From: Rhodospirillaceae bacterium
GTDB lineage: Bacteria; Pseudomonadota; Alphaproteobacteria; Rhodospirillales; Rhodospirillaceae
Direction: 5' to 3'
DNA length: 64,000 bases
NCBI GenBank assembly: GCA_947476925.1
Contig: CANJSF010000009.1
Span: forward strand, 1 to 64,000
Below, piece by piece: positions 4,115-54,754 of the stretch; the first letter of the stretch is position 1, and every line of letters starts with the position of its first letter. Position numbers and translations under genes: made by a program. The notes beneath the pieces are model-generated. The model was not told where the DNA came from. It made no database searches and was given only the letters and a program-made list of their open reading frames with translations.

Positions 4115-4503
4115 AGCTTTGCTTTTGTTTGTGAGCGATAACGAACTTACAAAAGCTGGCGCCTTGCCAATGCCCGCAGGGCGAAGACGGGTCGCGCAAT
4201 GCGCTCGACATTCGATTCCCTCCCATACGGGCATCAACTTTATCGATATTGTGCGTCTCGGAAAAAGCCCGCGGAACCCAGGACTTAACCCCCTGTTTCG
4301 ATATTGTTTTTAAGGGCTTGATTCAGTTAACCAGCACGGGGTATAGACCCTGCGCCGGTCGAGAGTCCGTTTTCGACCGGTACTTTTGTGTTGCCTAACG
4401 GCAACGAATCAGCGGGCGGCGGTGACAGAAAACAAAACAATTGGACGATCACTTAATCGCTCAAACGTTTTGTTATTAGAAACAAAGACTTACGGCAGGA
4501 TCT
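4115..4503. other. 389-bp gap between tRNA-Gly and tRNA-Trp, no gene seen
   Basis: No convincing coding sequence. The only open frame here (4119-4313) has no ribosome binding site or recognisable product. An 11-nt tRNA T-arm-like string occurs near 4211-4221, and a hairpin with a short T tract lies at 4355-4387. In many proteobacteria a tuf gene occupies this slot; here it is absent. Confidence 0.5.
4355..4387 (+). terminator. Candidate terminator hairpin after tRNA-Gly
   Basis: Perfect 8-bp inverted repeat CCGGTCGA (4355-4362) and TCGACCGG (4373-4380) with a 10-nt loop, followed by TACTTTT. It fits a weak intrinsic terminator for the tRNA-Tyr/Gly transcript. It lies 240 bp past the tRNA, so the assignment is tentative. 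Confidence 0.4.
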
Positions 4504-4579
4504 AGGGGTGTAGCTCAACTGGTAGAGCACCGGTCTCCAAAACCGGGGGTTGTAGGTTCGATCCCTATCGCCCCTGCCA
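4504..4579 (+). tRNA. tRNA-Trp (anticodon CCA)
   Basis: Complete 76-nt tRNA: acceptor AGGGGTG pairs with CGCCCCT, the anticodon loop CTCCAAA gives CCA (tryptophan), the discriminator is G and the 3' CCA is encoded. It lies just before secE, the arrangement found in most proteobacteria. Confidence 0.97.
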
Positions 4580-4701
4580 AATCGGAAATCGGTGCCTTGG
4601 CCAGGACAATACGCCGTCCTAGCAGAGCCTGTTTTGTCTGTTGTTTCGCCCGGATTCGGTGTTGTGCGGCGCGCTTTATATAGTTGTGGCGAAAGTATTC
4701 G

Positions 4702-4893
4702 ATGGCTTCAATAAGTCCCGGCCTGTTTGTCCGCCAAGTCCGTCAGGAAATGGCGAAGGTCACCTGGCCTAGCCGTCGGGAGACCACGATGTCGCTGATT
4801 CTGGTGTTCGTGTTTTGCACGGTCATCGGTCTGTACTTCTTGGTCGTTGATAAGTTGCTGACGTTTGGCGTGTCTTTGATTTTCGGGGTTTGA
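4702..4893 (+). CDS. secE: Preprotein translocase subunit SecE
   Basis: A 63-residue inner membrane subunit that clamps SecY in the SecYEG channel. It is the short single-spanning form typical of alphaproteobacteria: a cytosolic amphipathic segment with the conserved FVRQVRQEMAKVTWPSR signature, then one transmembrane helix of about 20 residues. I start at the ATG at 4702; an in-frame TTG 18 bases upstream is possible but would add residues unlike the family. nusG starts 6 bp downstream, so the two are co-transcribed. Confidence 0.95.
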   Translation: MASISPGLFVRQVRQEMAKVTWPSRRETTMSLILVFVFCTVIGLYFLVVDKLLTFGVSLIFGV

Positions 4894-4899
4894 GGGACG

Positions 4900-5430
4900 A
4901 TGGCTGCGAAGTGGTACGTGCTGCACGTTTACTCGGGCTTTGAGAATAAGGTCGCCCAGTCGATCCGCGAGCAAGCGGTTCAGCAGGGCATGGCCGAGAA
5001 AATTCAAGAAGTTCTGGTGCCGATGGAAGAAGTGGTGGAAGTGCGCCGCGGGGCGAAAGTCAACGCCGAGCGCAAATTCTTCCCCGGTTACGTATTGTTG
5101 AAAATGGATCTGACGGACGGTGCTTGGCACTTGGTCAAGAACACGCCGAAGGTCACAGGGTTTTTAGGAACGCAGAATAAACCGCTGCCAATTTCGGAAG
5201 CCGAAGCCCAGCGCATTATGAAGCAGGTGCAAGAGGGTATTGAGCGTCCGAAGCCCAGCGTGGTGTTCGAAATCGGTGAGCAGGTGCGCGTCAGCGATGG
5301 TCCGTTCACCTCGTTCAACGGCACGGTTGAAGAAGTTGATGAAGAGAAAGCGCGCATAAAAGTTTCCGTTTCGATCTTCGGCCGGGCGACCCCGGTTGAA
5401 CTCGAATACAGCCAGGTCGAAAAGCTTTGA
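4900..5430 (+). CDS. nusG: Transcription termination/antitermination factor NusG
   Basis: A 176-residue factor, near the usual 180. It binds the RNA polymerase clamp through its N-terminal NGN domain ([18 protein letters not shown] at the start) and links to Rho or ribosomal protein S10 through the C-terminal KOW domain ([19 protein letters not shown]). It modulates pausing, Rho termination and transcription-translation coupling. It directly follows secE. Confidence 0.97.
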
Positions 5431-5443
5431 TCTGACTGTCAGC

Positions 5444-5470
5444 GTTGTTCCGAACCGGGTTCGGAGCAAC
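5444..5470 (+). promoter_or_regulatory. Hairpin in the nusG-rplK spacer
   Basis: An 11-bp stem GTTGTTCCGAA / TTCGGAGCAAC (one G-U pair) with a 5-nt loop lies in the 135-bp spacer before rplK. There is no T tract, so it is not a classical terminator. In E. coli the rplK leader is where L1 binds to repress the L11-L1 operon. I cannot say whether this hairpin is that site. Confidence 0.35.
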
Positions 5471-5565
5471 GTCAACGCGGGAGGCACTGTTCCAAAGACC
5501 AGGAGCAGCCGTACCGCGGACCCGGCCCGCCAGTGGCTTACTGGTAACGATGCTGAGGTATTAAG

Positions 5566-5994
5566 ATGGCTAAGAAAATCGAAGGCTACGTCAAGCTGGA
5601 GATCCCAGCGGGCAAAGCTAACCCGTCGCCGCCGGTCGGTCCTGCATTGGGCCAACGTGGCGTCAATATTATGGAATTCTGCAAGCAGTTTAACGCTGCA
5701 ACTCAGAAGAGCGATCCCGGCGTGCCTACGCCCGTGATCATTACGGTCTACTCGGACCGCACGTTTACATTTGTCACCAAGACCCCTCCGGTCAGCTACT
5801 TCTTGAAGAAGGCAGCCAAGATCGAGAAGGGATCGGGCACAACCGGCCGTGGCTTCGTCGGCAAAGTGACGCAAGCTCAGCTGCGTGAAATCGCCGAAAA
5901 GAAAATGCCAGATCTGAACTGCGCAACCGTTGAATCAGCCATTGCTCAAGTCGCAGGTTCGGCCCGCGCAATGGGCCTGGAAGTGGTGGGGTAA
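5566..5994 (+). CDS. rplK: 50S ribosomal protein L11
   Basis: 142 residues, the E. coli length. Binds the GTPase-associated region of 23S rRNA and contacts EF-G and the stringent factor. The N-terminal domain carries the proline-rich [19 protein letters not shown] segment and the C-terminal domain the rRNA-binding part ([20 protein letters not shown]). A 5-bp spacer to rplA shows co-transcription. Confidence 0.98.
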
Positions 5995-5999
5995 CGCAC

Positions 6000-6698
6000 A
6001 TGGCACGTTTAGGAAAACGCATGACGTCTGCAATCGCCGGTCTTGACCGCGATCAGACTTACTCTGTTGTCGAAGCCGTGAAGTTTGTGAAAAACGGCGC
6101 CAAGGCAAAATTCAATGAAACCATTGAAATCGCCATGAACTTGGGCGTTGACCCCAAGCATGCCGACCAAATGGTGCGTGGTGTTGTGGCCTTGCCACAT
6201 GGCAGCGGCAAGTCGATGCGCGTGGCCGTGTTCGCCAAAGGCGACAAAGCCAAAGAAGCCACCGAAGCTGGTGCAGATTTGGTTGGCGCCGATGATTTGG
6301 CCGATAAAATCAACGCCGGCGAAATGGGTTTTGACCGTGTCATCGCCACGCCCGACATGATGGGCGTTGTCGGTAAGCTGGGTAAAGTTTTAGGCCCGCG
6401 CGGCCTGATGCCCAACCCGAAGCTTGGCACAGTCACTGCTGACGTGAAGACGGCCGTGAAAAATGCCAAAGCCGGTGAAGTGCAGTTCCGCGTCGAAAAG
6501 GCCGGCATTGTGCACGCTGGTATCGGCAAGGCGAGCTTCACCGAGGCGCAGATCGCCGACAACGTAAAAGCGTTTGTCGACGCGATCATGAAAGCCAAGC
6601 CCACAGGCGCCAAAGGCACCTACGTGAAAAAGATTTCGCTGAGCTCCACGATGGGGCCTGGCGTGAAGATTAATCCCGGCGAAGCGGTTGCTCGCTAA
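6000..6698 (+). CDS. rplA: 50S ribosomal protein L1
   Basis: 232 residues, close to E. coli L1 (234). Forms the mobile L1 stalk that helps release E-site tRNA; in many bacteria it also represses the L11-L1 operon by binding its own mRNA. Family signatures are visible: [17 protein letters not shown] and the C-terminal [11 protein letters not shown]. It follows rplK and ends before a 328-bp leader to rplJ. Confidence 0.98.
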
Positions 6699-7026
6699 GG
6701 GAGTTTGAATTTTGATCGAGCGATGAAAGTCGCGCGGTCAAATCAGTCCTCGATCGCACGTTTTGCGAAACAGGATTGAACCTGTCCGAGACCGGTGGTG
6801 CCGATCCCACGTTTGGGTGACGCATAAAGGGGCAACCCACCGCCACAGACGGGAGTCGCAAGACGTTTTGGTTTGTGATCATCGAACCACGGCGGATTGA
6901 GCTTCTGGGGCAGGACGAAAGAACCGGTCGATGTAAGTTTTTACATCGGGCGGAGTTTGTAACCGGTCCGATCTCGCGATGGATCAATGTCCATTGTCGA
7001 GGCGGTCCTCAGAAGCGGAGATACCC
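6699..7026 (+). promoter_or_regulatory. Long rplJ leader (candidate L10 autoregulatory region)
   Basis: A 328-bp non-coding stretch between rplA and rplJ. In other bacteria the L10-L12 complex binds a structured leader here to repress rplJL translation. Complementary blocks are visible: GATCGAG/CTCGATC early on, GGTGG with CCACC around the middle, and a perfect 8-bp stem CGATGTAA/TTACATCG at 6929-6948. The position and length fit an L10-type leader, but I could not fold it. Confidence 0.5.
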
Positions 7027-7545
7027 GTGAACCGAGAGCAAAAGAAGGAGCTGATTGGCTCGCTCAACGCTCTCTTAACGCAGCAAACGCTCCTCACCGT
7101 GACAGTCAACAAAGGTTTGACGGTCGCCGAGGTGCAGGAACTGCGCAAGAGAATGAGAGCAGCCGGTGCCGGCTTCAAAGTTGCGAAAAACCGGCTCGCG
7201 CGACTGGCTCTGGCTGGAACGAAGTTCGAAGGACTGAGTGCGCTGCTCAAAGGCCCAACGGGAATTGCATTCTCGAAGGACCCCGTCGCCGCGGCGAAAG
7301 TCTGTGCGAAGTTCGCAAAAGAAAACAACAAACTGATCATTGTCGGCGGTTCGCTCGACGGTCAGACGATGGACACCGCAGGCATCGAAGCCCTGTCTGT
7401 GCTCCCGTCGCTGGACGAGCTCCGTGGCAAGATCGTCGGATTACTGCAGGCACCTGCGACCAAAATCGCTGGCGTTCTGGCAGCTCCGGCAGGTCAGCTT
7501 GCTCGTGTTCTTTCAGCCCGCGCCAAGCAAGGCGAAGCCGCGTAG
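7027..7545 (+). CDS. rplJ: 50S ribosomal protein L10
   Basis: 172 residues. It is the base of the L7/L12 stalk, binding 23S rRNA with its N-terminal domain and L12 dimers with its C-terminal helix. I start at the GTG at 7027, which gives the family N-terminus (M)NREQKKELI and has CGGAG 7 bases upstream; an upstream in-frame start would add 16 residues unlike L10. The alanine-rich C-terminal helix (LAAPAGQLARVL) is typical. Confidence 0.96.
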   Translation: MNREQKKELIGSLNALLTQQTLLTVTVNKGLTVAEVQELRKRMRAAGAGFKVAKNRLARLALAGTKFEGLSALLKGPTGIAFSKDPVAAAKVCAKFAKENNKLIIVGGSLDGQTMDTAGIEALSVLPSLDELRGKIVGLLQAPATKIAGVLAAPAGQLARVLSARAKQGEAA

Positions 7546-7593
7546 CGCAATGTCGATATCACTCAAACCGTAGAATAAATCAGGAGAACCACC

Positions 7594-7979: not shown

Positions 7980-8095
7980 TTCGGTGGTGGCCATCACGGC
8001 CATCACCGAAGCGCATCGCGGTGTTTTGTCGAGAGCAGCGCAACATCGATGCGCTTCTGTCGCCAAAGCATTGCAAGAGATGCTGAGGGTTTTTT
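7980..8095 (+). promoter_or_regulatory. Structured rplL-rpoB spacer (possible attenuator or processing site)
   Basis: Three potential stems lie between rplL and rpoB: a 13-bp stem at 7980-7992/7998-8010 with one G-U pair, an exact 11-bp inverted repeat GAAGCGCATCG/CGATGCGCTTC at 8008-8018/8047-8057, and a short AGCAT/ATGCT stem at 8067-8084 followed by GAGGG and six T residues. In E. coli this spacer holds a partial terminator and an RNase III site that lower rpoBC output relative to rplJL. The layout here is consistent with that role. Confidence 0.5.
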
Positions 8096-8164
8096 GTTCT
8101 GTTTGTGAATCTTATTTCAGGTTCATCGGCAGAATTTTGTATTGATAAAAAGCGAGGATTCGTA

Positions 8165-11100
8165 ATGGCCAAATCCTTGAGCGGTCGTAAGCGCGTACGT
8201 AAAGATTTCGGGCGGATTCATATTGTCGCCCCCATGCCCAACTTGATCGAGGTGCAAAAAAGCTCCTACGACAAGTTCCTGCAGCCCGGAGCGCCACTTG
8301 ATGTGCGCCAGAAGTCTGGCTTGTGGGACGTGTTCAAGGGCGTGTTCCCGATTAAAGACTTTAGCGGTAAAGGCGAGCTGGAATTTGTCGGCTATGACCT
8401 CGAAGCGCCGAAGTATGACGTGGAAGAGTGCCGCCAACGCGGCATGACGTTCTCAGCTCCGCTGAAAGTCACGTTGCGCCTTGTCGTGTGGGATATCGAC
8501 GAACTGACGGGTGCTCGCTCGATCCGTGATATTAAAGAACAGGACGTTTACATGGGCGACATGCCGCTCATGACAGATACCGGCACGTTCATCATTAACG
8601 GCACCGAGCGCGTGATCGTGTCGCAGATGCATCGTTCGCCCGGCGTGTTCTTCGATCACGACAAAGGCAAAACCCATTCCTCGGGCAAATACCTGTTTGC
8701 TGCTCGTGTCATTCCGTACCGTGGTTCATGGCTCGATTTCGAATTCGATGCCAAAGACCTTGTTTATGTACGTATCGACCGCCGCCGCAAACTGCCGGTG
8801 ACGACATTGCTTTATGCGCTGGAAAGCCGCGAGACCGAAGATTTGCGCGTCAAGCGCGCCAAGCAAGGCAAGACCGTCGACATAACTGAAGTGCGCGGGA
8901 TGTCGTCGGAAGAAATTCTTAACTACTTCTACGAAGCGCAAAGCTTTAAGCGCGATAAAAAAGGCTGGGTCACGGCCTTCGATGCCCAAAAAATGAAGGG
9001 CATGAAGCTGCTGTTCCCGTTGATCGACGCTGATTCGGGCCGCGTGAAGGTGGAAGCTGGCGAAAAGTTATCGCCGCGCGTCGCGCTGAAACTGGAAAAA
9101 GAAGGCTTGAAAGAGCTGCGCGTACAGCCTGAAGAACTGGTTGGCCGTTATGCTGCCGAAGATGTGGTCAACACCAAGACCGGCGAAATCTACATCGAAG
9201 CGGGCGAGGAAATCACCGCCGAGACCGTAGGCGTGTTTGATGAAAACGACGTCGATCATTTCAAGACGCTGTTTATCGACGCCGTCAACGTTGGCCCTTA
9301 CATCCGCAACACATTGGCGCTCGACAAAAACACCAATCGTGACGAAGCGTTGGTGGACATTTACCGCGTGATGCGCCCCGGTGAACCGCCGACTTTGGAA
9401 ACCGCCGAAGCGTTGTTCCAAGGTTTATTCTTTGACTGCGAGCGTTATGACCTCTCGGCCGTTGGCCGCGTGAAAATGAACGCGCGTTTGAACCTAACCA
9501 ACGATGATGTGCCCGATACCACGCGTGTGCTGCGTAAAGACGACGTATTGCGCATCGTGAAAGTCTTGACCGACCTGAAGGACGGCAAAGGCGAAATCGA
9601 CGATATCGATCACTTGGGTAACCGTCGCGTGCGCTCGGTGGGCGAGTTGATGGAAAACCAATACCGCGTTGGCTTGCTGCGTATGGAGCGCGCAATCCGC
9701 GAACGTATGAGCTCGGTAGATATCGACACCGTGATGCCGCATGACCTGATCAATGCGAAACCGGCGGCAGCCGCTGTGCGCGAATTCTTTGGTTCGTCGC
9801 AGCTCTCGCAGTTTATGGATCAAACTAATCCGTTGTCGGAAGTCACGCACAAGCGTCGCCTTTCAGCCTTGGGACCAGGCGGTTTGACGCGTGAGCGCGC
9901 GGGCTTCGAAGTCCGCGACGTGCATCCCACGCACTATGGCCGTATTTGCCCAATTGAAACACCCGAAGGCCCGAACATCGGATTGATCAATTCGCTGGCC
10001 ACATATGCGCGTGTCAATCAATACGGCTTTATTGAAGCGCCTTATCGCAAAGTCGAAGACGGCCGCGCGACATCGGACGTCGTCTATCTCTCGGCGATGG
10101 AAGAAGGCCGCTACAACGTTGCGCAAGCTAACGAGCCGCTCGATCCACGCGGCAAGTTTGTCAATGATCTCGTGCAATGCCGTCACTCCGGCGACCTCGT
10201 CATCATCCCTGGCGCAGAAGTTCACTACATGGACGTCTCGCCCAAGCAATTGGTCTCGGTCGCTGCGGCGCTGATTCCATTCTTGGAAAACGATGACGCT
10301 AACCGCGCGTTGATGGGCTCGAACATGCAACGCCAAGCGGTGCCATTGATCCGCAGTGAAGCGCCGCTGGTCGGCACGGGAGTTGAAGAAGCGGTTGCCC
10401 GCGATTCCGGCGCGACAGTTGTCGCAGGTCGTTCAGGCGTTATTCAGCAGATCGATGCCACGCGTATTGTTGTGCGTGCGACAGCCGATACGTCGACAAC
10501 CACGCCGGGCGTTGATATCTATCGTTTGCAAAAATTCCAACGCTCGAATCAAAACACCTGCATCAATCAGCGTCCGTTAGTGAAGGTCGGTGATATCGTC
10601 TCGAAGGGCGATATTTTGGCCGATGGTCCGTCGACTGAGCTGGGTGAGCTGGCGCTTGGCCGTAACGTGCTTGTCGCGTTCATGCCTTGGAACGGTTACA
10701 ACTTCGAAGACTCGATTTTGATCTCTGAACGCATTGTTCGTGACGATGTGTTTACGTCGATCCACATCGAAGAATTCGAAGTCATGGCCCGTGACACCAA
10801 GCTTGGCCAAGAAGAAATCACGCGTGATATTCCCAACGTTGGTGAAGAAGCGCTGAAGAACATGGACGAAGCCGGCATCGTGTATGTCGGTGCGGAAGTG
10901 AAGGCTGGTGACATTCTGGTTGGTAAGGTCACACCAAAAGGTGAGTCGCCTGTCACGCCTGAAGAAAAGCTGCTGCGCGCGATCTTTGGTGAAAAAGCCT
11001 CAGACGTGCGTGACACGTCCTTGCGTGTTCCGCCGGGTGCCCAAGGCACCATCGTCGAAGTGCGCGTGTTTAACCGCCGCGGCGTAGATAAGGACGAGCG

Positions 11101-44778: not shown

Positions 44779-45372
44779 CTACGCTGAAGGTGTATCCCCA
44801 TTTGTGCCTACAGGAGGTTCCGGGATTTGGTGCTTCATGATGATGGGGACCAGCGCCAAGCTGAACAGCAGGGTTAGAGGCATCACGCCGAAGACCTTGA
44901 AGCTAACCCATGTGTCCGTGGGGAAATTGCGCCAAGCGACCTCATTGGCCACGGCCAAAAGCACGAAAAACCCAATCCAAGCGCGAGTCAGAAGCAACCA
45001 CCCTCGATCTGTAAGCTGAATGGCAGCCCCTAATACAATTTTGATAAACAGGCGCTTCATCAATAGCCCGGTCAATAACAGCGCCGCAAAGATCAGGTTG
45101 ACGATCGTAGGCTTGATTTTGATGAATAGATCATCTTGCAGGTAGATCGTCAGCCCGCCGAAAAACAGCACGAAGACGCCACCAACAAGCGGCATGACGG
45201 GGATGCTGCGAACCAGCGCGTACGAGACGCTGAGTGCTGCAATGGTGGCCACCATAAAAGCGATGGTGGCTGGGAAAATGCCAAAGCGTGAATTGCCGAT
45301 AAAGAACACCAGTAACGGGCCCATTTCGAGCGCCAGCTTGAGCCATTGGTTCATGGGTTTGGGTGTCGACAT
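44779..45372 (-). CDS. yciB: YciB-family inner membrane protein (septation protein A)
   Basis: 197 residues from the ATG at 45372 (MSTPKPMNQWLKLALEMGPL). Five to six transmembrane helices and the family wording ALEMGPLLVFFIGN, PTIVNLIFA, and NEVAWRNFPTDTWVSFKVFG. In enterobacteria the family affects septation and envelope biogenesis; mechanism unclear. The start is weakly supported; a TTG-type start 54 bases upstream exists but lies in the receptor terminator. Confidence 0.9.
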   Translation of the reverse strand: MSTPKPMNQWLKLALEMGPLLVFFIGNSRFGIFPATIAFMVATIAALSVSYALVRSIPVMPLVGGVFVLFFGGLTIYLQDDLFIKIKPTIVNLIFAALLLTGLLMKRLFIKIVLGAAIQLTDRGWLLLTRAWIGFFVLLAVANEVAWRNFPTDTWVSFKVFGVMPLTLLFSLALVPIIMKHQIPEPPVGTNGDTPSA

Positions 45373-45420
45373 AGCGTTTTTATACGCAAGGGCCGGCCTT
45401 GGGGCAAAGCCTATTGCGCA

Positions 45421-45454
45421 AAACAAAAGGGCCGGGGAAGAACCCCGGCCCTTT
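45421..45454 (-). terminator. Intrinsic terminator of the downstream TonB receptor
   Basis: AAAGGGCCGGGG (45426-45437) and CCCCGGCCCTTT (45443-45454) form a 12-bp stem. On the minus strand it is followed by TTTTGTTT. It ends the receptor transcript before yciB. It is nearly identical to the terminator at 48236-48272. Confidence 0.9.
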
Positions 45455-45475
45455 GCAAAGTCGTAGTTTAGCCGA

Positions 45476-47959
45476 TTAGAACGTGTAGTTGGCTTTCATG
45501 CCAAACATGCGCTTCACGGGCAACGAGAACCGTACTTCGTTCGAGTTCAGGATTGGCCCCACGAAGAAGCGAACGTCGGTGCCATAAAGGCCAGCCTGCA
45601 GAACGTTGTTCTTCGTCAGGTTGGTGACAAAGGCTTCGATCGTAAGGGCTTCGTTACGCACGCCAGCACGCAGGTTGACGGTCGTTGACGCGCCAACTTT
45701 TAAGACGTTGGTGTAGTCGGTGAAGTTTGACGAACGATGGGCAAGGTCAAACCGGCTGTACCAATCGTAGTCGCCGACAAACTTATCGGTGAACTCAGCA
45801 CCCACCGAGACGGTCGTCTTAGGTGTTGTCGGCAAACGGTTGCCAAGGCCTGCTTTTGGGTCGCCTAGGATGACGTTGCAATCTGCGCAGATGTAAGCAC
45901 CCAAATTGGACGTCTTGACCTTACTTTCATTGTATCCAATGGCAGTTTGGAAAGACAGGTTTTGGGTCGCTTTGATCTGACCTTCGAACTCAACGCCCTT
46001 AAGGTCGACGAGCCCGCTGTTCACAACGATATTGAAGATATTGACGTTCGGAACTGTCACAGCTGTTCCAGCTTGGCCATTCTTCCACTTATCGTAATAC
46101 ACAGCCAATGTTGTTCGGGCTTGACCGTCAAGGAACGTCGATTTCAGGCCTGCTTCCCAATTGTCCAACTGTTCTTGCTCATAAGCTGCCTTGGCTGCCG
46201 GTTGAACCGCCACAAGCTGCGCAACGACGGCTGGCGTATTGACGAAGAGAGCCGTGTTAAAGCCACCGGGACGATATCCGCGCGAGAACAATGCGTAGAC
46301 TGTCGAGTTCTCGGCATATTTGTAATCCAACGAAATGCGAGGCGAGAAGCTCTTGTAGGTGGCGTCAAGCGGGTTTGCAGCCGCACCGACAAGCGCTGCC
46401 GGCCGTCCGCCGACCGCGGTGTTGATCGGTTGGACGTGGATTTTATCCCACTGGTAGCGCGCTTCTGCTGTCGCCGTCAGTTCGTCAGTGATGTCGAAGT
46501 ACGCACCACCAAACACGCCCGACGTTTTAATGTCGGTCGTTGTCCTGCCGCCGGCTGCGAACGTCCCGATGTTAGTGTTGCTCAGCGTGCCGCCCGCTGG
46601 ATTGTGAACGTCGATGTAGTTACCACCGGCCGTCCAACGGAAGCGTTCCTTCGCAGGCGACGTCACACGAAGTTCTTGGCTCCAGTCTTGCGTACGTGAC
46701 GCGGCAACCGTTGTGAAGTTTGTATAAGGAAGCGTGCCGGGGAATGCGGCTGCAACCGGGTTGGGTGTGTCGTGGCTGTCACGGTACAACAGATCAAGAT
46801 TGGTCTGCGTTTTATCGGCGTGGTAAGCGCTCAACGAACTGAAATTATAGCCAGATTCGGTGTCGTAATCGACTTTGACGTCGGCTTGTTTGGCATTGCG
46901 CTTCAAGCCAAATTTTTGGTTGAAGGTCAAATCAAAGGCCATGGTGTCGGGATTGCCCTTGGTCGTGAACAACTTGTTCACGAGATATGGCGTCAACGTT
47001 GAGTCAGCTGAGATAAACGTCGGGTTGATCTGATTTGCTTTGGGCAATGTGCCGCAAATATAACCCTTGTTGACCAAGTTGGTCAGCGGAAGGCCAGCAG
47101 GAGGTGTGAATTTGCAGTTCAGAGATTCACCCTTGAGCGCGCCTTGAGCGGGCGTACCGTCGCGGTCTTCAAAGTAGTTCAAGAAACTCTTGATCTTCAA
47201 AGAGTCGCTGGGCGTGAAAACCATGACCTGGCTGAGCGAACGGGTTGACTGGGCTCCCATCTTTTCAGATGTGTTCGCCGCGTTGGTCCATTGACCGCCT
47301 CGGTACCAATGACGACCGCTGACGCGCACTGCGAATTTGTCGGCGACGACTGGTCCTTCGACGCTCAGAGTTTGCTCGTTAGAACCGTAGCTGCCGTATT
47401 CAACGCCAACACGGCCCTTGAAGGTGTTGCTTGGATCGCGAGTCACGTAGTTGATCGCGCCTGCAAACGTCGACCGGCCAAAGAACACGCTCTGTGGCCC
47501 TTTCAGAACTTCAACGCGTTCAACTTCGCCTGCGGCGGGACCTTGTGACGAGAGCACCGGTGCGCCGTCGACAAACAGCGAGCCGCCACCTGCGGCGCCA
47601 ACTTGGGCCACGTTAATGAACAGGCCGCGGAACGTGAGGGCTACGGCAGAACGGTCGTTACGACCCGAGCCGCCGGTTTGGTTCACGAAGTTAAAGCCGG
47701 GGGTGAAGCGGGCGATGTCATTAATGAGCGTAATTCCGCGGGCTTCGATATCTTTCGCTGTAAACGCTGTAATGGCGATAGGCACCTGCATCAGGTTTTC
47801 TTCAACCTTACGCGCTGTAACGACGATTTCTTCCAGGGCCAGGCCTTGGGCCTGCGCAGTTTGTTGGGCCATGGCTGGGCTAATTGCAGGCAGGCTGGCC
47901 GCAATCGCGATCAGGCTGGCAGACGCTGAAAGTCGCGACAAGGTTTGAGATAGGCGCAT
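45476..47959 (-). CDS. TonB-dependent outer membrane receptor (tandem copy 1)
   Basis: 827 residues from the ATG at 47959 (MRLSQTLSRL), chosen because it gives a clean signal peptide (1-31, cleavage after PAMA) and has AAGGGGGAT just upstream. TonB-box-like ALEEIVVTAR lies at 41-50, then the plug (GPQSVFFGRSTFAGAINYVT) and a beta-barrel ending in NYTF. A CADC motif occurs in the barrel. Substrate unknown. The neighbouring receptor on the same strand is a paralog with almost the same first 50 residues. Confidence 0.93.
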   Translation of the reverse strand: MRLSQTLSRLSASASLIAIAASLPAISPAMAQQTAQAQGLALEEIVVTARKVEENLMQVPIAITAFTAKDIEARGITLINDIARFTPGFNFVNQTGGSGRNDRSAVALTFRGLFINVAQVGAAGGGSLFVDGAPVLSSQGPAAGEVERVEVLKGPQSVFFGRSTFAGAINYVTRDPSNTFKGRVGVEYGSYGSNEQTLSVEGPVVADKFAVRVSGRHWYRGGQWTNAANTSEKMGAQSTRSLSQVMVFTPSDSLKIKSFLNYFEDRDGTPAQGALKGESLNCKFTPPAGLPLTNLVNKGYICGTLPKANQINPTFISADSTLTPYLVNKLFTTKGNPDTMAFDLTFNQKFGLKRNAKQADVKVDYDTESGYNFSSLSAYHADKTQTNLDLLYRDSHDTPNPVAAAFPGTLPYTNFTTVAASRTQDWSQELRVTSPAKERFRWTAGGNYIDVHNPAGGTLSNTNIGTFAAGGRTTTDIKTSGVFGGAYFDITDELTATAEARYQWDKIHVQPINTAVGGRPAALVGAAANPLDATYKSFSPRISLDYKYAENSTVYALFSRGYRPGGFNTALFVNTPAVVAQLVAVQPAAKAAYEQEQLDNWEAGLKSTFLDGQARTTLAVYYDKWKNGQAGTAVTVPNVNIFNIVVNSGLVDLKGVEFEGQIKATQNLSFQTAIGYNESKVKTSNLGAYICADCNVILGDPKAGLGNRLPTTPKTTVSVGAEFTDKFVGDYDWYSRFDLAHRSSNFTDYTNVLKVGASTTVNLRAGVRNEALTIEAFVTNLTKNNVLQAGLYGTDVRFFVGPILNSNEVRFSLPVKRMFGMKANYTF

Positions 47960-48296
47960 AGAATCCCCCTTAGGAATTATTGATTTAAGCATCGCATAGA
48001 TGCGGAAATACAGCGCCGAAGCGACATCGATATTAAGGTGCCCAATTGGGCAGTAACGTTGGCGCAATAATTTTCGCAAAACACCCTACTTCATATCCGG
48101 CTAAGGCGACACGCCGTCGATCATTTGAGCCCGCCATCCAGACAACTTATGATTCCGTTCGGTCGTGTGCTGTTTAAGTCACACTTTTCGACCGTTTGGG
48201 GCGGTTTATGCGATCCCATCGTGCCAAATACCCCAGACAAAACAAAAGGGCCGGGGAAAACCCCGGCCCTTTGACGCTTCGCAGTAACTTAAGTGA
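47960..48296 (-). promoter_or_regulatory. Upstream region of receptor copy 1
   Basis: 337 bp with no gene. It contains the upstream receptor's terminator at its far end, a block AAGTGTG.C.TAAA (minus strand, about 48175-48188) and GTAGGGTG (about 48087-48094), both also present upstream of receptor copy 2. No clear -35/-10 pair was found. These are candidate operator or promoter elements. Confidence 0.4.
48236..48272 (-). terminator. Intrinsic terminator of the upstream TonB receptor
   Basis: AAAGGGCCGGGG (48245-48256) and CCCCGGCCCTTT (48261-48272) with a 4-nt loop, followed on the minus strand by TTTTGTTTTG. Almost the same sequence as the terminator at 45421-45454. Confidence 0.9.
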
Positions 48297-50840
48297 TTAG
48301 AAGTTATAGCTGCCGCGGATACCGAATGCGCGTGGGTCGGCAGGCGAAAAGCGGATTTCGTTCTTGTTTGGCGGAACCAAGAACGTAAACACGTCGATGC
48401 CCAACAAAGCCGACTTCATGACCCGGTTTTGTGTGGCGTTCGTCACGAAGGCTTCGATCGACATGGCCTTGTTACGCATGCCCAGGCGAAGGTTGATATT
48501 GTCCGACGAGCCGACCTTTGCAACGTTTGACAGGTCGGTGAAGTTTGAGCCCTGATGTTGGTAGTCCACGCGGCCAAACCAATCGAACTCACCGGTCAAA
48601 TTGTCGGTGTATTCAGCTGAACCAGTCCATGTGTATTTTGGAGCAGTTGGCAAAGTACGACCGATAGCGCCGGCGAAGCTTCCGTAAACAAAGTTACAAT
48701 CGCTGCAGTTGCCGGTTCCGATGCCATAGGACTTAACCTTTGAATCATTCAGGCCTGCTGTAGCTGAAAGTTTGAGTTCCTCGGTCGCTTGGAACTGACC
48801 TTCGAACTCAATACCCTTCAAGCGCGCGATGCCGTTATTGATCGTTAAGCCAATCAAGTTCGCGACAGTTGTTCCGGGTGTTGGGCCAGGAATAGTGACA
48901 GGAACGCTATTGGCAACCTGACCATTCGCCCACTTGTCAGAATACAGCGTCAAAGTGGCGCGACCGCGACCATCCATAAAGCTCGACTTAATGCCGACTT
49001 CCCAGTTATCGAGCTTTTCTTGCTCGAAAGAAACTCCGGCGGACGGCACGACGGCGCGCAAGGCATCAAGAGTTGCCTGGTTGGCTGTAACGAGGCCAGC
49101 GTTGAAGCCGCCCGGGCGATACCCACGCGAGAACAGCGCATACACCGTCGAATTGTCGGCATATTTGTAGTCAACCGAAACGCGCGGCGAGAAGCTCTTG
49201 AAGGTGTTCTGAAGCGGATTGGCTGCGGCACCCGTCACAGGGTTACCTGTGATGCCAACCTTTGGCGTGGTGATGATTTTATCCCACTGATAGCGAGCTT
49301 CGGCGCTGACAGTAAGTTGTTCCATGACGTCATAGTAAGCGGCGCCAAAAACGGCGGGGGTCTTGACGTCTTGCTGCGTAATTGCCGCTGTGAACAGCGG
49401 GCCGCTTGTCGTTTGACCATACACAGTGCCGCCTGGTGAGTGGGCGCGAAGATAATTGCCCCCTGCGGTGACGCGGAATGGCTGATCTTGAGGCGACGTC
49501 ACGCGTAGTTCTTGGCTCCAGTCACGCGATTTGTTTTGCGAGACCAGCAAGAATTGCATCCAGGGAACGCGTGTCGCTGACGTCGCAGCGGAGAAGAGCG
49601 GGTTAACGCGATCATGGCCGTCACGATAATTCAAGTCGATGAGGGTCATTGTCCGCTCTTTGTGGTAAGCGGTCAGCGAACTTAACGAATAACCTTCGGT
49701 CGTGTCGTAATCCATGCGCAAGTCGGCTTGGAAAGCACGACGTTTGATACCGCCATGGCGGTTGAACGTCGTCGGGAAGATAATCCAGTTTGGGTTAGGA
49801 TTAAAAAGATTGTTGCGTGTTGTTGCGTTGGTCAGATCGTAATCGCCTGAAATCAGCGAGAGCAAATTACCTTCGACCTTCGGCAAAGTTCCGCAATAAT
49901 AGCCCAGCGACGCACGTGAGTTTGCGGTGACGGTGCCGGAAGCTACACCTGGAGCGAGGGTCGTAAACGGTGTGCATGAACCATCTGCATTCGCGCGGCC
50001 CGTGAACTCACCTTGTTTCAGTGCACCCTGAGCTGGTGCGCCATCGTTATCTTGGAAGTAATTGATATAGGTCTTCGCTTTAAATCCGTCGCTTGGCTTA
50101 AAGACAGCCGAACCAGAAACGGACCGGGTGGTCTGGCGGCCGAGACGCTCATTGGTGTTTCCGGCATTTTCGAACTGGCCGCCACGCACGAAATCGCGAC
50201 CGGCAATGCGGGCTGATACTTTATCTTCAACCAACGGGCCTTCAAAGCTGACGCTGGTATCGTGAGAACCGAAGCTTGAGGCTTCAGCATTCACTCTGCC
50301 TTTAAAGCTGTCAGATGGATCGCGTGTGACAAAGTTGATCGCGCCGACGAAAGTTGATCGACCGAAGTATGCGCTCTGGGGACCTTTTAAGACTTCAATT
50401 CGTTCGACGTCGATGATGCTTGGCGGCTGCGCACCGATCACAGGCGCGCCGTCAACAAACAATTGACCGCCAGAATTTAGACCAACGTTGTTCGCCAGGA
50501 ACAAACCACGGAAGACGAGGGCATTTGAAGACCGGTCGTTGCGACCAGAGCCACCTTGCTGGTTCACAAAGTGGAAACTGGGGGTCATGACCATGACGTC
50601 GCCCAATTGTTTGATGCCGATGGCTTCGATGTCCTTCTCGCCAAACGCCGTAATGGCAATCGGCACCGTCATCAGATTTTCTTCAACCTTACGCGCCGTA
50701 ACGACGATTTCTTCCAGGGCCAAGCCTTGGGCCTGTGCAGTTTGTTGGGCCATGGCTGGGCTAATTGCAGGCAAACTCGCCGCAATCGCGATCATGCTGG
50801 CAGACGCTGAAAGTCGAGATAAGGTTCGAGATAGGCGCAT
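48297..50840 (-). CDS. TonB-dependent outer membrane receptor (tandem copy 2)
   Basis: 847 residues from the ATG at 50840 (MRLSRTLSRL), with a purine-rich AGGGGAT upstream; an earlier in-frame codon would add 60 residues without a signal peptide. Signal peptide 1-31, TonB-box-like ALEEIVVTAR 41-50, plug with GPQSAYFGRSTFVGAINFVT, barrel ending SYNF and containing CSDC. The first 50 residues differ from tandem copy 1 at only two positions, while the barrels are much more diverged. Substrate unknown; the divergent neighbour is the propionyl-CoA carboxylase operon. Confidence 0.93.
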   Translation of the reverse strand: MRLSRTLSRLSASASMIAIAASLPAISPAMAQQTAQAQGLALEEIVVTARKVEENLMTVPIAITAFGEKDIEAIGIKQLGDVMVMTPSFHFVNQQGGSGRNDRSSNALVFRGLFLANNVGLNSGGQLFVDGAPVIGAQPPSIIDVERIEVLKGPQSAYFGRSTFVGAINFVTRDPSDSFKGRVNAEASSFGSHDTSVSFEGPLVEDKVSARIAGRDFVRGGQFENAGNTNERLGRQTTRSVSGSAVFKPSDGFKAKTYINYFQDNDGAPAQGALKQGEFTGRANADGSCTPFTTLAPGVASGTVTANSRASLGYYCGTLPKVEGNLLSLISGDYDLTNATTRNNLFNPNPNWIIFPTTFNRHGGIKRRAFQADLRMDYDTTEGYSLSSLTAYHKERTMTLIDLNYRDGHDRVNPLFSAATSATRVPWMQFLLVSQNKSRDWSQELRVTSPQDQPFRVTAGGNYLRAHSPGGTVYGQTTSGPLFTAAITQQDVKTPAVFGAAYYDVMEQLTVSAEARYQWDKIITTPKVGITGNPVTGAAANPLQNTFKSFSPRVSVDYKYADNSTVYALFSRGYRPGGFNAGLVTANQATLDALRAVVPSAGVSFEQEKLDNWEVGIKSSFMDGRGRATLTLYSDKWANGQVANSVPVTIPGPTPGTTVANLIGLTINNGIARLKGIEFEGQFQATEELKLSATAGLNDSKVKSYGIGTGNCSDCNFVYGSFAGAIGRTLPTAPKYTWTGSAEYTDNLTGEFDWFGRVDYQHQGSNFTDLSNVAKVGSSDNINLRLGMRNKAMSIEAFVTNATQNRVMKSALLGIDVFTFLVPPNKNEIRFSPADPRAFGIRGSYNF

Positions 50841-51166
50841 ATAAATCCCCTGATTAAAATAAAGATAGAGAACAGCTTTTAGTTTTTTGGGGCCCGGCAC
50901 GGAAAAGCCCCCACCTGTTAATTGCAAGCCCTCGATTAAAATATCACAAGGTTTGCAGAATAGTGAGTCCACCCTACAAACGCCCTTGAAATCAACCGCG
51001 CTGTTGCTTTTAGGCCACACTTTGTGGGACCCTACTTTTTACTGGCAGACCAGGGGGCTGGGTGTGCTAACTGAGACATAAAATTGGTGCCCAAAAAGGC
51101 ACCCGCGAGGGGCGAAATTTCGATCATTTTCGGGCCACAGCCGTTGGCCATCAGACCGGGACCAGC
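50841..51166. promoter_or_regulatory. Divergent region between receptor copy 2 and pccB
   Basis: 326 bp with no gene. On the minus strand it holds the AAGTGTG.CCTAAA block (about 51009-51024), GTAGGGTG (about 50972-50979) and a second GTAGGGT directly before the block (about 51028-51034). A 6-bp hairpin GGTGCC/GGCACC (51086-51103) lies nearer pccB. It must carry promoters in both directions; I cannot assign -35/-10 boxes. Confidence 0.4.
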
Positions 51167-52699
51167 ATGAACGCCATTATTAAAAAACTCGATGAGAAGC
51201 GCCGTTTGGCACGTTTAGGCGGAGGGCAAACCCGCATCGACAGCCAGCATGCCAAGGGCAAGCTGACGGCCCGCGAGCGGATCGAACTTTTGTTCGATGA
51301 AGGTTCGTTTGAAGAGTGGGATATGTTCGTCGAGCACCGCTGCACCGACTTCGGTATGGCTGACCAAAAGGTGCCTGGCGACGGTGTGATTACCGGCTAC
51401 GGCCTGATTAATGGCCGGCCCATGTTTGTCTTCAGCCAAGACTTCACGGTGTTCGGCGGTTCGCTGTCGGAATCCCATGCCAAAAAAATCCTTAAAATTA
51501 TGGAAAAGGCCGTGCAGGTTGGCGCGCCGGTGATTGGCCTGAACGATTCAGGCGGCGCGCGCATCCAAGAAGGCGTCAACTCGCTGGCCGGCTATGCAGA
51601 TGTCTTTTTGCAAAATGTGCTGGCTTCGGGTGTGGTGCCGCAAATTTCTATGGTGATGGGGCCGTGCGCAGGTGGCGCGGTGTATTCGCCCGCGATCACC
51701 GACTTCATCTTTATGGTGAAGGATACCAGCTACATGTTTGTCACCGGGCCCGACGTGGTGAAAACCGTGACGCACGAAAACGTCACCCACGAACAGTTGG
51801 GCGGTGCGATGACGCATGCCACAAAGTCGGGCGTGTCGGACGGTGTTTTCGAAAACGACGTGGACGCATTGTTGCAGCTTCGCCGTTTGATGAATTTCCT
51901 GCCGCGCAGCAACAAGGAAAAGCCGCCGGTTATTCCTTGCGTCGATCCGGCTGATCGGAACGACTATTCGCTCGACACGCTCATTCCAGAAAATCCCAAC
52001 AAGCCTTACGACATGAAAGAGCTGATCGCCAAAATTGTCGACGAGGGCGACTTTTTCGAGATCGGCGAACACTTTGCCAAAAACATTATCTGCGGCTTTG
52101 CCCGCATGGAAGGCTCGACGGTCGGCATCGTCGCCAACCAGCCCATGGTGTTGGCCGGTTGTTTGGACATCGACTCTAGCTGCAAAGCCGCGCGCTTCGT
52201 GCGTTTCTGCGATTGCTTCAATATTCCCATTCTCACACTGGTTGACGTGCCGGGCTTCATGCCCGGCACCGACCAGGAATACGGCGGCATTATCAAGCAT
52301 GGCGCAAAATTGTTGTTTGCCTATGCCGAAGCCACGGTGCCCAAAATTACGCTCATCACGCGCAAGGCCTACGGCGGCGCATATGACGTCATGAGTTCCA
52401 AGCATGTCCGCGCCGATGTGAACTTTGCCTGGCCCACCGCTGAAATCGCGGTCATGGGTGCGAAAGGCGCGGTGGAAATTATTTTCCGCGGCGACATCGG
52501 CGACAAAGCCAAAATTGCCGCACGCACCAAAGAGTATGAAGAGAACTTCGCCAACCCCTTCAAGGCGGCCAACCTGGGCTTTGTCGATGACGTGATCTTG
52601 CCGCACACCACGCGCCAACGCATCTGTCGCTCGCTGAACATGCTGAAAACCAAGGACATCAAAAATCCTTGGAAAAAGCATGGCAATATTCCGTTGTAA
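51167..52699 (+). CDS. pccB: Propionyl-CoA carboxylase beta subunit (carboxyltransferase)
   Basis: 510 residues. Transfers carboxyl from biotin to propionyl-CoA giving methylmalonyl-CoA. N- and C-terminal crotonase-fold halves with oxyanion-hole glycines ([12 protein letters not shown]; later [20 protein letters not shown]) and PccB-type wording [17 protein letters not shown] and [16 protein letters not shown]. pccA follows 12 bp downstream. Preference for propionyl over acetyl is inferred from overall sequence. Confidence 0.94.
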
Positions 52700-52711: not shown

Positions 52712-54754
52712 ATGTTCAAAAAAATTCTGATTGCTAACCGGGGTGAGATTGCCTGCCGCGTCATCAAGACCGCGCGCAAGATGGGCATCAAAACTGTCGC
52801 TGTTTATTCCGACGCCGACAAAGACGCGTTGCATGTGCAAATGGCCGACGAGGCGGTGCACATTGGCGAAGCGCCCACAGCCAAAAGCTATTTGCAGATC
52901 GATCGCATCGTTAAAGCATGCAAGCAAACGAAAGCCGAAGCTGTTCATCCGGGCTACGGCTTTTTGTCTGAAAACCGTGCATTCCAAGAAGCGCTGGCCA
53001 AGGCCAAGATCGTGTTCATTGGGCCCGATGCTCATGCGATTCAGGCGATGGGCGACAAGATTGAATCTAAAAAGCTCGCCGTGAAGGCAGGCGTTAGCGT
53101 GGTTCCGGGCTTCAACGGCGTCATCAAAGATGTCGCGCACGCGATGAAGATTGCCAAAGACGTCGGCTATCCGGTGATGATTAAGGCGTCGGCGGGCGGC
53201 GGCGGTAAAGGTATGCGCATCGCTCGTAACGAGGGTGAAGTGCGCGAAGGCTTCGAACGCGCCACCTCAGAGGCTAAGTCGTCGTTTGGCGATGACCGCG
53301 TGTTCATCGAGCGTTACATCGAGCAGCCGCGCCATATCGAAATTCAAGTTCTGGCCGACCGCAAGGGTAACACATTCTATCTCGGCGAACGTGAGTGCTC
53401 TATTCAACGCCGCCACCAGAAGGTGATCGAAGAAGCGCCCTCGCCATTCCTGGATGCGAAAACCCGCAAGGCCATGGGCGAGCAAGCTGTCGCGTTGGCC
53501 AAAGCGGTGAAGTACGTTTCCGCTGGGACCGTGGAGTTCATCGTCGACCAGAAGCGCAATTTCTATTTCTTGGAAATGAACACGCGCCTGCAAGTCGAAC
53601 ACCCCGTCACCGAGATGGTCACTGGGCTCGACCTTGTTGAATTGATGATCCGCATTGCTTACGGCGAAAAAATTCCCTTCGCACAGAAAAATGTGCAACT
53701 CACAGGCTGGGCTATGGAAAGCCGCGTGTACGCCGAAGACCCGTACCGCAATTTCTTGCCGTCTACTGGCCGTCTCGTGCGTTATATGCCGCCGCTCGAA
53801 GGCAAGAACGTGCGCGTAGATACGGGCGTGTATGAGGGCGGCGAAATCTCTGTCTATTACGACCCGATGATCGCCAAGTTGGTGACCTATGGCAAAACTC
53901 GCAGTGAAGCCATCGAGTACATGCGCGAAGCTCTCGACGCCTATTATATTCGCGGCGTCAGCCACAACATTCCGTTCCTGGCCTCGCTTATGGGCAAGAA
54001 AAAATTCGAAGACGGGAAGCTGTCGACCAACTTTATCGCTGAAGAATACCCTGACGGCTTTGCGGCAAAAGATTTGCCCGCAAAAGACCCAACACTGCTC
54101 ACCGGCATCGCAGCGCTCGTGCATCATGCCTATCAAGCACGAGCCGCAGCCATTTCCGGCCAGGTCTCAGGCCATGGCCGTGATCTGCCAGAAACCTGGA
54201 TGGTCGTCTCGGGCGAGGGCAAAAACCAGAGTGCTCACCAAGCGTGGGTCTCGCCCCACCCCGAACGAGAGGCCGACCCCAATATGGGCCCGGCGAGTGG
54301 TGTGGTGAAGGTGGGCGCGCGCACGCTCACATTGGCTAGTGCGTGGACCTATGGCCATCCGTTGCTCACGGCGAAAATCAAAATCGATAAGGGCGCTGCC
54401 ACTGAAGTGACCGTGCAGGTTGATCAACGCGGTGCTGGCTATCGGCTGTTTCATGCGGGCGCGCAAATTGACGTGAAGGTGTTAACGGTGCGCGAGGCCG
54501 AACTGAACCGTCTGATGCCCTTTAAACCGCCGCCGGATTTATCGAAGTACCTCCTCTCGCCTATGCCGGGCCTATTGGTCTCGCTGGCGGTGAAGGAAGG
54601 CCAAGAAGTAAAGGCAGGCGAAACGCTGGCTATTGTCGAAGCTATGAAAATGGAAAACGTGCTGAAAGCCGAGCGCGACGGCACCGTGAAGAAAATTCAC
54701 CAAGCACCCGGCAGCAGTTTGGCCGTCGACCAAGTCATTTTGGAATTCGCTTAA
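52712..54754 (+). CDS. pccA: Propionyl-CoA carboxylase alpha subunit (biotin carboxylase and carrier)
   Basis: 680 residues. ATP-dependent biotin carboxylase (FKKILIANRGEIACRVIKTA; ATP-grasp KASAGGGGKGMR; EMNTRLQVEHPVTE), a middle BT region that docks to the beta subunit, and a C-terminal biotinyl domain with EAMKMEN, Lys646 being the biotinylation site. Supplies carboxybiotin to PccB. Typical PccA length and order. Confidence 0.95.
   Translation: MFKKILIANRGEIACRVIKTARKMGIKTVAVYSDADKDALHVQMADEAVHIGEAPTAKSYLQIDRIVKACKQTKAEAVHPGYGFLSENRAFQEALAKAKIVFIGPDAHAIQAMGDKIESKKLAVKAGVSVVPGFNGVIKDVAHAMKIAKDVGYPVMIKASAGGGGKGMRIARNEGEVREGFERATSEAKSSFGDDRVFIERYIEQPRHIEIQVLADRKGNTFYLGERECSIQRRHQKVIEEAPSPFLDAKTRKAMGEQAVALAKAVKYVSAGTVEFIVDQKRNFYFLEMNTRLQVEHPVTEMVTGLDLVELMIRIAYGEKIPFAQKNVQLTGWAMESRVYAEDPYRNFLPSTGRLVRYMPPLEGKNVRVDTGVYEGGEISVYYDPMIAKLVTYGKTRSEAIEYMREALDAYYIRGVSHNIPFLASLMGKKKFEDGKLSTNFIAEEYPDGFAAKDLPAKDPTLLTGIAALVHHAYQARAAAISGQVSGHGRDLPETWMVVSGEGKNQSAHQAWVSPHPEREADPNMGPASGVVKVGARTLTLASAWTYGHPLLTAKIKIDKGAATEVTVQVDQRGAGYRLFHAGAQIDVKVLTVREAELNRLMPFKPPPDLSKYLLSPMPGLLVSLAVKEGQEVKAGETLAIVEAMKMENVLKAERDGTVKKIHQAPGSSLAVDQVILEFA

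Follow-up and report, generated by a model that had tools for sequence, protein, structure and literature searches.

A TonB-dependent receptor of a Rhodospirillaceae bacterium, probably a recombinant with a front end of its tandem neighbour's type

The window analysed here is a stretch of 64,000 nucleotides from a Rhodospirillaceae bacterium (contig CANJSF010000009.1, positions 1 to 64,000), and it holds two TonB-dependent receptor genes in tandem on the reverse strand, denoted g1 (45476..47959, 827 amino acids (aa), the downstream gene) and g2 (48297..50840, 847 aa, the upstream gene). g1 is very probably a recombinant receptor, in which a front of the g2 type is joined to a divergent plug and barrel, and the two parts meet where the plug starts in the structure model. 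Such a gene could arise by homologous recombination. Either gene conversion took place between the tandem neighbours, or a divergent receptor replaced the body in a duplicate of the g2 type; the crossover would lie in the conserved stretch of TonB box and plug start. The product would be a receptor of different ligand range whose export, TonB coupling and probably also regulation rely on parts of the resident type. The region concerned, 45421-51034, had been placed correctly in the initial annotation of the window.

The front end common to g1 and g2

Both proteins match the Pfam profiles for plug (PF07715) and barrel (PF00593) above cut-off, at residues 56-168 and 338-781 respectively in g1, and 460 of their 820 aligned residues are identical. 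In both, a signal peptide can be read by eye from the sequence as a hydrophobic N terminus up to SPAMAQQ. This is followed by LEEIVVTA, also carried by the aligned relatives, which we take to be the TonB box. MRLS is the likely start of both proteins, because an upstream ATG of g1 is missing in g2. The leader of g1 (47960-47992) is open in frame, with this ATG 11 codons upstream (MLKSIIPKGDS-MRLS).

Comparison of the two genes with each other and with the single receptor of G002, a genome of the same genus, delimits a tract that appears to be recently shared. It runs from about position -33 in the 5' untranslated region (UTR) to about codon 63 and comprises signal peptide, linker and TonB box (47771..47992 in g1 and 50652..50861 in g2, both on the reverse strand); the 5' UTR of g2 appears about 12 bp shorter than that of g1 and G002. 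Over codons 1-63 only 15 of 189 bases differ between g1 and g2, and over codons 1-60 nucleotide identity is 0.92 and third-position identity 0.87. After codon 70 third-position identity is 0.39, which is near saturation, and it stays low. A maximum-scoring-segment test on third positions chose codons 1-59 (0.88, against 0.43 overall), with none of 1000 permutations as good when codons are treated as independent. The same gradient is seen in the proteins, where identical residues number 60/63 in the tract, 76/116 in the plug, 206/376 in barrel strands and 110/262 in the rest of the barrel. The initial annotation had described the first 50 residues as nearly alike (48 of 50 are identical) and the barrels as far more diverged, and the comparison bears out both statements.

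The genome is rich in receptors, with 38 open reading frames (ORFs) of at least 550 aa matching g1 in stretches taken from the 3.8-Mb assembly. When the first 180 bp of the front were used as a DNA probe on the genome, only g1 and g2 were matched over the full length, so that the same 5' end is not a general property of its receptors. Elsewhere the probe gave 36 matches, none longer than about 60 bases, and over half of these fall on the TonB-box stretch. An all-pairs comparison was made of the 38 ORFs together with three tandem pairs of relatives, in which 686 of 706 pairs were kept and 20 were left out for too few aligned codons. The g1/g2 pair ranks first of the 686, with an excess of front over body third-position identity of 0.48; the runner-up, a pair on contigs 56 and 67, reaches 0.34 and every remaining pair at most about 0.23. 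Start codons in this table were chosen by script: of 47 receptor ORFs three have no TonB-box match, four were given no start and are taken from the beginning of the open frame, and some box matches are doubtfully placed.

That the fronts are alike without any recombination, through constraint on translation start, export or RNA, is scarcely credible. Signal peptide and TonB box are functional elements, and matches among the genome's receptors fall most often on the TonB-box stretch, but the front DNA is not common to these receptors and third positions of g2 and G002 agree at only 0.48 in codons 1-65. As the same value of 0.48 is found in the body, the front is not unusually constrained. A search of Rfam up to E 0.1 returned a single sub-threshold match (26.9 bits against a cut-off of 43), which lies over the terminator of g2 and is taken as a chance resemblance of the hairpin. 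The comparison with G002 and the all-pairs ranking led us to discard selection, or a codon bias, acting on the 5' end. Of the two causes for which the initial annotation had left room, gene conversion or selection keeping the ends alike, recombination is thus retained for the front and selection is not.

Relative ages of body and front

The body of g1, plug and barrel together (45479..47770, reverse strand), reaches no more than about 52% identity with any of the relatives found; the values are 0.498 for g2, 0.517 for G004a and 0.505 for G006. In a body tree of 24 rows, g1 falls outside a 15-row clade (99/99) that holds g2, its rows from the genus and other genera. Approximately unbiased (AU) tests on the body reject a clade of g1 with g2 (p 2.7e-64) and with g2 and G002 (p 5.5e-8), as well as clades of g1 with wider sets, to which first G004a-c (p 3.0e-6) and then G003a and G020 (p 0.006) are added. 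The bodies of g1 and g2 are therefore not mutual closest relatives, as those of simple tandem duplicates would be. The alignment of relatives omits G026 and G039 from 27 matches, the body tree is without two partial G001 genes and the front tree without one of these.

A loop insertion near residue 281 is present in 11 of the 15 rows of the g2 clade (g2, G002, G004a-c, G003a, G020, G005, G052, G045 and G027) and absent from g1. The four clade rows without it (G008, G040, G056 and G048) form one subclade, and the eight outside rows other than g1 likewise do not carry it. The missing insertion is independent evidence that g1 lies outside the g2 clade. On these data the plug and barrel of g1 are much older than the g2 clade, or foreign to it. 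No g1 ortholog is evident among 118 genomes, in which the best match is 54% identical over the full length.

The slot of the tandem was compared in four genomes of the genus (G001-G004). In our window the tandem is flanked by a YciB-like gene (44779-45426, reverse strand) and by a divergent carboxylase pair, putatively pccB and pccA (51167-52699 and 52712-54754, forward strand). The order YciB-receptor-pccB-pccA, with one receptor, is found in G002 and G003, and in G001 pccB adjoins YciB with no receptor between. The slot of G004 is unreadable, as the contig with pccB appears to stop inside the gene. The comparison with relatives proposed in the initial annotation thus gives one receptor or none where there are two here. 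The G002 receptor is the ortholog of g2 at the same place (82% aa identity), and the two form a pair in the body tree (100/100). A scan of a genome collection with g2 matched one locus, on a contig of a Baikal metagenome-assembled genome.

With G002 as a reference, the front of g1 appears younger than its body. In codons 1-63 G002 differs from g2 at 45 and from g1 at 44 of 189 positions, against the 15 between g1 and g2; the two fronts are thus equally far from G002, and copying in either direction would fit. From codon 171 to the end the relation is reversed, with 860/1944 differences between g1 and g2 and 529/2034 between g2 and G002. Informative sites in codons 1-63 group g1 with g2 at 9-10 positions, whichever of four fourth taxa is used, and neither alternative has more than 3; those after codon 171 group g2 with G002 (97-123 against 44-67). 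These distances and counts indicate that the front tract was common to g1 and g2 more recently than the split of g2 and G002. The pair thus shows a recent tract within an older divergence and in conflict with the rest of the gene, as gene conversion, or a recombinant paralog, would leave.

The initial annotation had proposed a duplication followed by diversification of the ligand-binding parts. This has the order wrong, since the body of g1 lies outside the g2 clade in the AU tests and is without the loop insertion. As a rival account this main reading of the initial annotation, in which g2 was duplicated recently and the plug and barrel of g1 then changed very fast in place, is improbable. 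It would account for a tandem in a slot that holds one receptor in G002 and G003, for the upstream motif type and terminator type common to both genes, and for loops that differ more than strands (barrel identity of 0.42 in non-strand and 0.55 in strand residues). However, selection on the protein does not produce a drop in third-position identity like the one seen around codons 60-70, from 0.87 to 0.39, and divergence is far greater in the promoter regions than in the front. The body tree, the AU tests and the absence from g1 of the loop insertion of g2's subclade contradict it as well.

Several results weigh against a recombinant origin of g1. Sites in codons 64-170 are mixed, with counts for g2+G002 and g1+g2 of 13:6, 8:8, 14:12 and 17:7 for the four fourth taxa. 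AU tests on the tract alone keep the g2+G002 clade (p 0.23 with 25 rows and 0.16 with 8 rows); as the tract is too short for its rejection, the claim of recent sharing rests on the distances and site counts. The branch of g1 is long (0.61), and long branches may be drawn outward in a tree. A search of 317 genomes of the order, with the three best first-look candidates scored per genome, gave no donor for the body of g1, the best reaching 52%. The guanine-cytosine content of g1, both overall (GC) and at third positions (GC3), is ordinary among the receptors of this genome, so nothing marks a recent import from a distant donor; a recent foreign origin by composition was set aside for want of signal. 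Beyond position -35 the upstream regions of g1 and g2 align no better than shuffles (z -0.7), and of the 11 neighbouring or paired receptors examined 8 show no copied tract.

Flanking regions and the course of recombination

The failure of the upstream regions to align makes a recent duplication of the whole unit unlikely, and two steps would be needed. Both regions still carry a two-part element, on the reverse strand. That of g2 (50963..51023) consists of AAAGTGTGGCCTAAAAGCAACA and then TTTGTAGGGTGGACTCAC with a start-to-start spacing of 43, and the diverged element of g1 (48125..48187) of AAAGTGTGACTTAAACAGCACA and then TCTGGATGGCGGGCTCAA with a spacing of 45. The motif was seeded with g2 and trained on the hand-picked members g2, G002, G003a, G004a and G001n (spacing 43 in all five); 64 regions were scored and one of under 120 bases was skipped. 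g1, which was not used in training, comes top of the 59 untrained regions with a score of 23.5, followed by G004b at 17.4 and the next at 13.8. Among 343 background stretches taken from the window none scores as high (at most 15.7), and held-out training members score 25-40. One genus member, G004c, is without the element (score 3.9). The promoter region of g1 is thus of the genus type, yet more diverged than the front of g1.

Nearer to the gene, 28 of the last 34 bases before g1 are shared with G002, including an unbroken ATCAATAATTCCTAAGGGGGAT, and the leader of g2 looks like the same one minus about 12 bp. The initial annotation had listed two blocks as shared upstream, AAGTGTG.C.TAAA and GTAGGGTG. 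Both words are present, and the AAGTGTG block belongs to the motif of the clade, but the GTAGGGTG of g1 is not the homologous site and is probably a coincidence. It was dropped as a conserved block because the motif trained on relatives chooses another site in g1, at near-conserved spacing. In 8 of 40 shuffles a 14-base match as good as the best one of the two upstream regions is reached.

Both genes end in an intrinsic terminator with the same 12-bp stem, with a 5-base loop behind g1 (45426..45454) and a 4-base loop behind g2 (48245..48272), again on the reverse strand. Their likeness had been reported in the initial annotation, and 36 of 36 aligned bases are identical with one gap (37 columns). 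The exact motif occurs nowhere else in the genome; a relaxed stem pattern gives five rows (one place being counted on both strands), among which GGGCCGGGG is present only in these two terminators. A GGGCCGG-type stem lies at the same place in G002, G003a and G004a-c, with a related GGCCGGG in G001c. Since the same stem type stands behind receptors of the genus, no conversion is needed to explain the terminator type, and the terminator was abandoned as proof of conversion. Between g1 and g2 the terminators are more alike than either is to that of G002. Such near identity suggests recent sharing, although the likeness may be ancestral.

Two courses of events could have produced a recombinant g1, and we give them about equal weight; g1 is a recombinant under either. 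In one, a g2-type duplicate retained its promoter, front and terminator, and recombination at both ends replaced plug and barrel. This is an open contender, short of probable. The promoter motif and terminator of g1 are of the type of the genus's g2 clade and the body is not, the breakpoint coincides with the start of the modelled plug, and in the pair on contigs 56 and 67 the flanks, the fronts and the last 62 codons are alike, with greater divergence in the body that they enclose. A single recent event would, however, not yield all parts, given that the promoter of g1 is much more diverged than its front; nor was a donor found, and the 3' end of the coding part has no alike stretch. In the other course, of much the same standing, g1 is an old tandem paralog of which only the front, and perhaps the terminator, was overwritten from g2, or the reverse. 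This agrees with an alike stretch that has a limit at either end, near -33 and near codon 63, and with an internal tract in the tandem of G004 that is best read as conversion between neighbours. An old tandem would, on the other hand, require losses from the slot in G001, G002 and G003, as g1 has no evident ortholog.

A structure model of g1 (mean pLDDT, the predicted local distance difference test, 76.5; 20 aligned sequences) places the first plug strand at residues 64-67, followed by plug elements and then long barrel strands. Residues 1-62 have a pLDDT under 50, which fits a flexible linker or varied signal peptides in a shallow alignment. According to the model the copied stretch would stop about where the folded plug begins. 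The TonB-box stretch would offer homology for a crossover, because other receptors of the genome match it more often than the rest of the front. The boundary at the plug start could reflect function or mechanism.

Other receptor pairs and known systems

Copied tracts are present in three of the 11 neighbouring or paired receptors, namely g1/g2, the pair on contigs 56 and 67, and the tandem of G004 (L104, contig 362, receptors 5079-7580 and 8025-10502). In the last, from a sister species, codons 58-89 are alike at 32 of 32 third positions (none of 1000 permutations as good), and the fronts and signal peptides differ more. It is conceivable, if rather doubtful, that the genus swaps receptor bodies as cassettes into standing shells of promoter, 5' UTR, export signal, TonB box and terminator, and that crossovers occur preferentially at the junction of flexible N terminus and folded plug. 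The three pairs fit such a system in part and the other eight do not. If it were true, a single event could change the ligand range and leave export, energy coupling and regulation as they were. The further tracts in the same genus make a wider survey worthwhile.

g1 and g2 resemble siderophore receptors in sharing plug and barrel. Neither reaches the cut-off of an NCBIfam family. The highest-scoring one, TIGR01783 (TonB-dependent siderophore receptor), requires 223.5 and the two receptors score 113.5 and 113.1, which leaves them unassigned to it. Solved structures contribute 33 distinct matching sequences, aligned mostly over the plug and headed by a pesticin receptor (8e-12), and do not indicate a ligand.

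The oprD gene of Pseudomonas aeruginosa is described as a mosaic made by recombination of alleles between strains and possibly species (PMC2777410). Like these mosaics, g1 is a single gene for an outer-membrane protein made up of blocks that differ in ancestry. Unlike those alleles, g1 and g2 are adjacent paralogs and the boundary lies at the plug start. In Bacteroides fragilis, the intergenic SusC/RagA shufflon is reported to work by inversion at extensive inverted repeats that overlap the start codon (PMC5729914). Both it and the g1/g2 pair combine a common front or expression site with different receptor genes, but g1 and g2 are co-directional and each has its own front. Inverted repeats in 45300-51200 comprise 14 pairs of 14-30 nt, of which the two palindromic terminators are the longest. 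None joins the starts of g1 and g2, so that there is no sign of a shufflon. For FpvA, plug sequence is reported to track ligand specificity (PMC11444679), and the plugs of g1 and g2 differ too. We infer that g1 and g2 import different ligands via the same TonB machinery.

Among the open-access papers listed, none deals with copied front ends of TonB-dependent receptors in its title or the start of its abstract, which is no proof of absence. Mosaic outer-membrane genes and paralogs are already known, and g1/g2 is a clean new example of modest novelty. By joining a resident front to a divergent body, a bacterium could gain a new receptor for which export, coupling and probably also regulation are right from the outset. 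The pair is also a warning against using the ends of tandem receptors, where these are alike, to date them or to call them neofunctionalised duplicates. Phages and bacteriocins use such outer-membrane receptors. If body exchange were frequent in this genome, it would be a simple, testable route to shifts in nutrient range and in phage or bacteriocin sensitivity.

Two further receptor pairs may be described. Contigs 56 (L140, G000, 4133-6687) and 67 (L141) are collinear, and each ends at the stop codon of its receptor. Their upstream genes, presumably arsR-, arsC- and aquaporin-like, are 92-98% alike per 150 bases, and a putative acetyltransferase-like gene between these and the TonB receptor is 45-67% alike. 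The two receptors, which could be either paralogs or strain variants, are 93-96% alike in the front, at 97% of third positions in the last 62 codons and at 63-88% in the body. The receptor at 308-2416 of the window shows the reverse pattern when compared with L146 (contig 42), the protein body being 81% identical and the front only 65%.

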